Source: an uncultured Phycisphaerae bacterium
GTDB taxonomy: Bacteria; Planctomycetota; Phycisphaerae; Sedimentisphaerales; Anaerohalosphaeraceae
Direction of reading: 5' to 3'
NCBI GenBank assembly: GCA_937949545.1
Contig: CALEDR010000011.1
Location: 1 to 45,642, forward strand
Length of the DNA: 45,642 nt
The position numbers and the translations under genes are program-made. A model generated the notes under the pieces. The model worked only from the letters and a program-made list of their open reading frames with translations. It had not been told where the DNA came from and ran no database searches. Shown here piece by piece: positions 26,250 through 28,454 of this stretch (its first letter is position 1; every line of letters begins with the position of its first letter).

Positions 26250-28151
26250 ATGAAAACAATAGACTATCGGAAAGACTGGCAGAAAACCAGCATGCCGGAA
26301 CATATTAAACGGATTTTGGGCAGCTGCTGTTCATTGTATTTTCCGCTCAATCGAAACGAAATTTTGGATATGGCCATGGGAGGCCAAAAAAGCGGAACCT
26401 TTGAAGTCGCTTATGACGTGCCCGACAAAGGCCGTGTGGTGGAGGCCACCGTGGTACGCTGCAAAAACGGCCTTTCCATCAACTATACGGAACCCTACAT
26501 GCGGCGAAGAGACCCAGACTGCATGGTTATTGCGGACAAACGCGAAACAGACAAGGTTCGCTTTGAAGACCGATTCCAAAAACCTTTCGAACCCCTCCGC
26601 GAGGAAACTTTTGCCTGGCTGAGTACACAAGACCTGTCCGTGACTTTTTTCACAATCGGGGCCTTCGAAGTGGAAAGCGGACAGGGGGCTATGCTGATTG
26701 CCCCCAAAAACGCCGGATTCTTCGTCGGCGGTCTGGCAGACCTGCAGGGACTTGTGCCGCCGGATAAAATCCCGGATAACTTTCGAATCAGAAGCGTCAT
26801 TTACCTGGCGCCGCCTTTCCGCCATACTCACTTCAGCGGAAAGCAGGTGGTCGTCCACAACCGGCTGCCGGGTCTTCACGAAATCTTCTCCTTCAATCTC
26901 TATCCGGGTCCCAGCGCCAAGAAAGGCATTTATGGGGTCCTTCTGTCAATCGGGGAAGAAGAAGACTGGCCGACTCTGCACGGCTCCACCGTCCAGGTTG
27001 TCACGCCGTATGACAACGTCACAACCATTATGCACGAAGGGGCCAGCGGCGGCGGAAAAAGCGAGATGCTCGAATACGTCCACCGGCAGAAAGACGGACG
27101 CCTTCTGCTCGGAACCAACATCATCACCGGCGAGCAGCGTCTGCTGGTCCTCAACCAGGGATGCCAGCTTCGTCCGGTTACCGATGATATGGCGATGTGC
27201 ATGCCCAACACCATCAAATCCAACGGATATCTGCTGGCCAAAGACGCCGAACAGGCCTGGTTTGTCCGTCTGAATCATATTCTGCATTACGGCACAGACC
27301 CCCATCTGGAAAGCATTACGATTCACCCTGCAGAACCTCTGATTTTCCTGAGTCTGCAGGGTACAGAAAACGCCACGTGTCTCATTTGGGAGCATACCGA
27401 AGACGCGCCCGGTGTTCGCTGCCCGAATCCCCGGGTCATCCTGCCCAGACGTCTGGTCCCCGGGGTGGTGGACGGTTCAGTGGAAGTGTCCATCCGCAGT
27501 TTCGGCATCCGAACGCCTCCCTGCACCAAAGAGCGTCCGACGTACGGAATTATCGGATACATGCACGTTTTGCCGGCGGCGTTGGCCTGGCTGTGGCGTC
27601 TGGTCGCTCCGCGCGGACATTCCAACCCGAGCATCACGGACACAGTCGGCATGACCAGCGAAGGAGTCGGCTCGTACTGGCCCTTTGCCGCCGGACGAAT
27701 TGTGGACCACGCCAACCTCCTGCTGCGGCAAATTCGTGCCACCCCCAAAGTGCGTTACGTCCTGATGCCGAACCAGCACGTCGGGGCATGGGAAACCAGC
27801 TTTATGCCGCAGTGGATTGGCCGTGAATACCTGGCTCGAAGAGGACTCGCTCGTTTTCAGCCTCATCAGCTGACTCCCTCGCGATGCCCCCTGCTCGGAT
27901 ATGCCTTTACCTCCATGCAGGTGGAAGGAACACCGATTCCAAACATTTTCCTGCAAACCGACAAACAGCCGGAAGTCGGAGAAGATGGATATGACAAGGG
28001 AGCGGAAATCCTTCGCCAGTTCTTTGTGAAGGAACTTCAAAAATTCCGTCATCCGGATTTGGACCCGCTCGGCAAGGACATTATCAACTGCTGTCTGGAC
28101 GGCGGAACGGTTCAGGACTATGAATCGCTGCTGTATGATGTTTTTTCCTGA
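26250..28151 (+). CDS. DUF4914 protein with HprK/PEPCK-like P-loop
   Basis: A 633-residue soluble protein that I assign to the DUF4914 family by overall appearance. The clear motif is GASGGGKSE (264-272), a P-loop of the form found in HPr kinase (GxSGxGKSE) and related PEP carboxykinases, followed 40 residues later by TDDM (Asp312-Asp313), in the place of the kinase-2 metal-binding aspartates of that superfamily. A nucleotide-dependent phosphotransferase or carboxykinase-like activity is therefore inferred; the substrate is unknown. Start: ATG at 26250 with an AAGGAAG ribosome site. Transcription ends at a strong hairpin 36 bases after the stop. No pathway neighbours explain it. Confidence 0.85.
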   Translation: MKTIDYRKDWQKTSMPEHIKRILGSCCSLYFPLNRNEILDMAMGGQKSGTFEVAYDVPDKGRVVEATVVRCKNGLSINYTEPYMRRRDPDCMVIADKRETDKVRFEDRFQKPFEPLREETFAWLSTQDLSVTFFTIGAFEVESGQGAMLIAPKNAGFFVGGLADLQGLVPPDKIPDNFRIRSVIYLAPPFRHTHFSGKQVVVHNRLPGLHEIFSFNLYPGPSAKKGIYGVLLSIGEEEDWPTLHGSTVQVVTPYDNVTTIMHEGASGGGKSEMLEYVHRQKDGRLLLGTNIITGEQRLLVLNQGCQLRPVTDDMAMCMPNTIKSNGYLLAKDAEQAWFVRLNHILHYGTDPHLESITIHPAEPLIFLSLQGTENATCLIWEHTEDAPGVRCPNPRVILPRRLVPGVVDGSVEVSIRSFGIRTPPCTKERPTYGIIGYMHVLPAALAWLWRLVAPRGHSNPSITDTVGMTSEGVGSYWPFAAGRIVDHANLLLRQIRATPKVRYVLMPNQHVGAWETSFMPQWIGREYLARRGLARFQPHQLTPSRCPLLGYAFTSMQVEGTPIPNIFLQTDKQPEVGEDGYDKGAEILRQFFVKELQKFRHPDLDPLGKDIINCCLDGGTVQDYESLLYDVFS

Positions 28152-28183: not shown

Positions 28184-28220
28184 AAAACAAAAAAGGTCTG
28201 TACACGACAGACCTTTTTTT
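28184..28220. terminator. Bidirectional terminator (DUF4914 and ncRNA)
   Basis: AGGTCTGT and ACAGACCT close a five-base loop and are flanked by A7 on one side and T7 on the other, so the hairpin can end the plus-strand DUF4914 transcript and the minus-strand ncRNA. Confidence 0.92.
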
Positions 28221-28421
28221 GATGTAGGTACCTCCGCAGATGCCGTGCGGAATCGATTGAAAGCAACCCTGTATAGTAAGGTGGGCGACCGTTGCGGAAG
28301 TCCGGAACGTCCTGTCAAGCAGGCATGTCCGATCCTTGCCGACCTGGTCTCCCCGATAGGGTGCATCGGTTCTTTCAAATTAGCGTTTCCGTCACGCACA
28401 CCGCAGGGGCCAACCTGCATC
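28221..28421 (-). ncRNA. ssrS: Structured ncRNA, candidate 6S RNA
   Basis: About 201 bases without a coding gene. The 5' end (GATGCAGGT) pairs with the 3' end (ACCTACATC) in a nine-position helix with one mismatch; further in, TGC-GTG pairs with CAC-GCA around a G-G mismatch; the centre folds as an irregular rod capped by CCTG-CTTGA-CAGG. A promoter fits exactly upstream and a terminator exactly downstream. The size, rod shape, 5' GGCCCCTGCGGTGTGCGTG and 3' CGGCATCTGCGGAGGT resemble 6S RNA, the regulator that binds the housekeeping RNA polymerase. SRP RNA and RNase P RNA were considered and their conserved cores are absent. That it is an RNA gene is more certain than the 6S name. Confidence 0.65.
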
Positions 28422-28425
28422 TTCA

Positions 28426-28454
28426 ACTATAGCAAAGTATCGGAGAAAAAGCAA
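28426..28454 (-). promoter_or_regulatory. Promoter of the candidate 6S RNA
   Basis: On the minus strand TTGCTT (28449-28454), 17 bases, TATAGT (28426-28431). The predicted start at about 28420 coincides with the first bases of the closing helix of the RNA. Confidence 0.75.

Follow-up and report, generated by a model that had tools for sequence, protein, structure and literature searches.

A 6S RNA (ssrS) gene with its own promoter and terminator in an uncultured planctomycete of the class Phycisphaerae

In the stretch of planctomycete DNA analysed here (45,642 nucleotides, referred to below as the window), a unit read on the minus strand from 28454 to 28189, which consists of a promoter, a structured RNA and a 13-pair terminator, is almost certainly the ssrS gene, encoding 6S RNA. 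The gene forms an independent unit with a housekeeping-type promoter and a terminator of its own, and its product probably acts by the mechanism known for the family. The identification is carried by the match to the family, by the architecture and covariation of the RNA, and by the conservation in relatives of the promoter, the terminator and the motif at the predicted start of the product RNA. It is an ordinary 6S gene of a known family, of a kind caught by a routine Rfam scan, in a lineage that is sparsely studied.

Results

Architecture of the locus

An earlier reading of the window, made from its letters alone (the sequence-only reading), had described a promoter, a structured RNA with pairing ends and a terminator at 28188-28454. 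Each of these elements could be located on the minus strand and is conserved in relatives, and the span, from the -35 box to the terminator, is correct. The features are listed below with the evidence for each.

28449..28454, minus strand: -35 box, TTGCTT (sequence; pattern match over 28454-28426; TTG with a 17-base spacer in 42 of 50 relatives)
28426..28431, minus strand: -10 box, TATAGT, separated from the -35 box by a 17-base spacer (sequence; promoters of relatives)
28222..28420, minus strand: predicted 6S RNA transcript of about 199 nt (fold; encloses the RF00013 match; ends predicted)
28227..28412, minus strand: 6S RNA core, equivalent to RF00013 positions 1-187 (Rfam covariance-model match)
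28368..28378, minus strand: inner helix of the closing stem, 5' arm, beside the central bubble; predicted template of the product RNA (pair counts)
28257..28268, minus strand: inner helix of the closing stem, 3' arm (89.6% of cells paired, n = 50)
28354..28367, minus strand: central bubble, 5' side, which partly forms a local CCGAU/AUCGG hairpin in the centroid fold (RF00013 alignment; fold)
28269..28282, minus strand: central bubble, 3' side (RF00013 alignment; inner-helix pair count)
28283..28353, minus strand: apical arm (terminal stem) with internal loops (RNAalifold and covariation)
28365..28379, plus strand: predicted product RNA, AUCGGUUCUUUCAAA (homology; 6S RNA as template, start opposite U28365)
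28189..28219, minus strand: intrinsic terminator, a 13-pair stem and T-rich tail (terminator scan; kept in relatives)

The distance from the -10 box, together with the pairing of AUGCAGGU and ACCUACAU at the two ends, would place the ends of the RNA at approximately 28420 and 28222, and 28420 is more likely to be the RNA start than 28423. The longest open reading frames (40 or more amino acids) that overlap the RNA core have 81 amino acids on the minus strand and 163 on the plus strand, and the latter also crosses the gene for tRNA-Glu and reaches into that for tRNA-Met; a minus-strand frame of 242 amino acids touches the terminator only and runs antisense through a gene for a DUF4914 protein. 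A protein gene at the RNA core is not credible, in agreement with the sequence-only reading. Comparison of the 202-base gene with plasmid records gave no match. The stability of the fold relative to shuffled sequences is modest (z = -2.3 to -2.7; in each of two folds, 3 of 200 shuffled sequences did equally well), and since these single-sequence statistics are modest, the weight of the evidence at the locus lies on conservation, that is, on covariation, promoter and terminator.

Family identity

A 461-base stretch around the locus was compared with Rfam at E <= 10, which returned nine matches. The 6S family, RF00013, aligned over its full model (positions 1-187) to minus-strand positions 28227-28412 with 55.7 bits and an E value of 1.6e-8, above the gathering score of 46.4 bits, and no family competes with it: the runner-up, Thr_leader, reached 17.8 bits (E 0.73; its own cut-off is 55) and sits on the terminator. 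The search of the source genome with RF00013 gave this one match. Membership in the 6S family is thus indicated by a score above gathering, by architecture and covariation, by a product-RNA start site predicted from sequence, and by length and a separate non-coding gene; the core measures 179-189 nt across 50 sequences from the order. The name 6S RNA, put forward from sequence as a candidate, is borne out by the score and by strong covariation in homologous loci.

The RF00013 score is only about 9 bits above the gathering cut-off, which could suggest a new class of structured RNA that merely resembles 6S, for example a polymerase-binding RNA of the Ms1 type. The cited passage of PMC9130861 describes Ms1 of Actinobacteria as structurally related to 6S RNA and as binding RNA polymerase. 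Ms1 binds the core enzyme and is described from Actinobacteria; the source lineage belongs to Planctomycetota. This explanation is very improbable. The RF00013 alignment is full-length, relatives within the order score up to 82.3 bits with the same model, and the motif at the product-RNA start is conserved, which a core-binding RNA would presumably not need. The Ms1 family is absent from the nine Rfam matches at E <= 10, an absence that is informative only if Rfam 15 has an Ms1 model. The new RNA class that the sequence-only reading kept as a fallback is unsupported, given the RF00013 match and the covariation of homologues.

Structure and covariation

Homologous loci were aligned, and in the 50 sequences RNAalifold recovered a closing stem, a wide central bubble and an apical arm, which is the 6S layout. 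Changes on both sides have preserved 29 of the 42 predicted pairs. Overall, 92.3% of cells are paired compared with 80.1% in shuffles, the covariation score is 0.417 compared with 0.194, and on none of five measures did any of 500 shuffles reach the observed value; when the partner columns were slid by 1-3 positions, pairing fell to 38.6-44.0%. The comparison of relatives that the sequence-only reading had proposed thus shows strong covariation.

The inner helix of the closing stem was omitted by RNAalifold and was introduced manually, using the fold of the window's 6S sequence. In the alignment 7 of its 11 pairs have changes on both sides (n = 50), and the 89.6% of cells that are paired is a figure that leans towards the helix, because the helix was derived from one of the 50 sequences. 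Folded singly, 45 of the 50 sequences form at least five of the pairs and the other five form none.

Promoter and terminator

The -35 box of the source is weak, with 3 of 6 consensus bases, and for this reason a simple promoter scan did not list the 6S promoter. Under a rule that requires a TTG -35 box with at least 3 of 6 consensus bases and a -10 box that starts with TA and has at least 4 of 6, the 42 relatives with a 17-base spacer compare with 1.45 in base shuffles; with spacers of 16-18 bases the count is 45 of 50, compared with 3.9 in base shuffles, and five of the 50 have no promoter by this rule. A strict terminator scan was satisfied in 48 of 50 relatives. Between 28100 and 28850 of the window, both strands together, there are 5 terminator-like sites, compared with 1.0 +/- 1.2 in shuffles.

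Upstream of the 6S gene, on its own strand, are the genes for tRNA-Met and tRNA-Glu, approximately 160 bases from the -35 box, and the pair is also found at the 6S locus in G001, G003 and G004. That the RNA is only a 3' tail or attenuator of this tRNA unit, with no gene of its own, is nevertheless the least probable explanation and scarcely credible, given the separate promoter in 42 of 50 relatives and the 50 of 55 distinct 6S loci that have no tRNA gene (same-genus G002 and G005 included; flank lengths vary) while the terminator is kept.

The promoter spacer of the 6S gene (28432-28448, minus strand) was also compared. Of 50 relatives, 28 have the motif CCGA within the picked spacer, 13 of them at the 6th spacer base and 6 at the 14th; these counts use automatic promoter picks that favour a 17-base spacer and that are wrong for some rows, such as G047, G058 and G038. 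Shared ancestry alone could explain the motif. CCGA as the mark of a regulon was considered and rejected: the promoter pattern, searched in the source genome, hits the 6S promoter and, apart from it, a single site that has two mismatches, which gives no sign of a regulon. The pattern TTG-N15-CCGATATAAT, searched in four genomes of family f2, gave 68 matches compared with 16 for a reversed control, which is a crude one; the pattern falls one base short of the spacing of the f2 6S promoters, and 59 of the 68 matches carry a mismatch.

Predicted product-RNA site

The 5' side of the bubble reads ACCGAU or a near variant in the alignment, and all 50 sequences have the same AU at the predicted start of the product RNA, corresponding to A47 and T48 of the first sequence. 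By analogy with studied 6S RNAs, the start site is assigned to U28365, from which the product RNA predicted for the source genome would be AUCGGUUCUUUCAAA, with the opening bases AUCGGUUCUUUC. The predicted product RNA opens with AUCGG or AUAGG in 49 of 50 sequences, and in G043 with AUUAGG. These two openings put GG at product positions 4 and 5, which fits the pattern that the cited part of PMC8414754 gives for E. coli, A. aeolicus and R. sphaeroides.

Gene neighbourhood

The 3' neighbour of the 6S gene is the DUF4914 gene, on the opposite strand at 26250-28151. It was found in 3 of 9 relatives tested, all of the same genus, and is absent from G001 and G005, which also belong to that genus. 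The protein is 83% identical to a Planctomycetota relative, L031. Among its 13 relatives in named genomes, one is from Planctomycetota. Most of the others are labelled as Verrucomicrobiota-like groups, Opitutia-type or other, and there are single relatives in metagenome-assembled genomes labelled Spirochaetes, Psychroflexus and Sumerlaeia; the gene may have passed from one lineage to another.

A tmRNA gene adjoins the 6S gene in divergent orientation in four genomes of family f2, approximately 155-225 bases from the 6S core (L004:978-1329, L007:993-1344, L013:1853-2205 and L057:646-998). No tmRNA neighbour was found in L049, also of f2, or in L003 within 486 bases upstream.

Occurrence in the order, class and phylum

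RF00013 matched 51 of 59 genomes of the order, the source included, at E <= 1, and 46 of these were above the cut-off. A covariance model of the order was built from sequences of 50 of the 51 matching genomes; its alignment left out G027, the weakest RF00013 match at 35.1 bits, and a second weak match of 18 bits in G033. With the order model G027 scores 133.7 bits, and four of the eight genomes missed by RF00013 (G001, G025, G036 and G056, none in the alignment) are recovered with 152-180 bits. Together the two models place a 6S gene in 55 of the 59 order genomes. Neither gave a convincing copy in G014, G030, G032 or G034, of which G014 is 95% complete and the other three 77-88%.

Loss of 6S RNA had been considered for G001, a genome of the same genus that is 99% complete, and was rejected when the order model scored 179.8 bits. 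The copy, at L067:1501-1685, scores 53.5 bits with RF00013 on the locus itself and yet had been missed in the whole-genome search, so calls of absence from filtered genome searches are unsafe.

In the phylum, RF00013 matched at least 129 of 294 genomes at E <= 1e-3, with at least 81 above the cut-off, and the order model matched at least 100 of 294, 18 of them outside the RF00013 list; in the class the order model matched at least 100 of 150. The phylum and class counts are lower bounds because stricter filters were used in these three large searches. At a more sensitive setting, six genomes of family f8 and two of f9 in the class had no RF00013 match, and G285 and G296 had matches below the cut-off only, so within the class 6S RNA either is not universal or escapes detection in these genomes. 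In the phylum search with RF00013 a third f9 genome, G134, had a partial match of 28.7 bits.

Discussion

The function of this RNA would, by analogy with studied 6S RNAs, include transcription of the gene, binding of polymerase, synthesis of a product RNA and control by growth phase. The mechanism given in the cited passage of PMC8876501 is mimicry of an open promoter, synthesis of a product RNA from the 5' side of the bubble, refolding and release. Applied to this locus, the rod-shaped RNA, open at its central bubble, would mimic a melted promoter, and 6S RNA would occupy the housekeeping sigma-RNA polymerase holoenzyme as growth slows. When NTPs return, polymerase would copy the 5' bubble and the inner stem from U28365 into the short product RNA, which would open the inner stem and release the enzyme.

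The identification assigns a gap between genes to 6S RNA and provides, for what appears to be an order of planctomycetes, 50 aligned sequences with product-RNA predictions. It also shows that filtered genome searches with RF00013 overlook real 6S copies in this lineage. General knowledge of 6S RNA is unchanged by this gene. One passage of PMC5673643, which cites Wehner et al., states that 6S RNA was not found in Thermogutta terrifontis. Among the papers listed by literature searches on planctomycetes, including Rhodopirellula, the Phycisphaerae and anammox bacteria, no title or displayed abstract opening was about 6S RNA in this group; this describes titles and abstract openings and is not a claim that it is unreported. 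A broader reading, that 6S RNA is near-universal in the order and common in the phylum, that its reported absence from planctomycetes partly reflects the sensitivity of models and filters, and that CCGA in the spacer sets growth-phase control, seems unlikely as a whole.

Compared with the 6S/SsrS family of RF00013, the RNA described here shares its length, closing stem, central bubble, apical arm, product-RNA start motif and separate gene. It differs in that the order has a consensus of its own: the order model scores 176.1 bits on the source sequence, which is in its alignment, compared with 55.7 bits for RF00013. The predicted product start lies in the 5' side of the bubble, as do U44 of E. 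coli 6S RNA and nucleotide 40 of B. subtilis 6S-1 in the cited passage of PMC8876501. As in the E. coli 6S RNA treated in the cited part of PMC8414754, GG occupies positions 4 and 5 of the product RNA, here as a prediction from sequence. The neighbours of the 6S gene in this lineage are tRNA genes in part of the genus and a tmRNA gene in part of a sister family.
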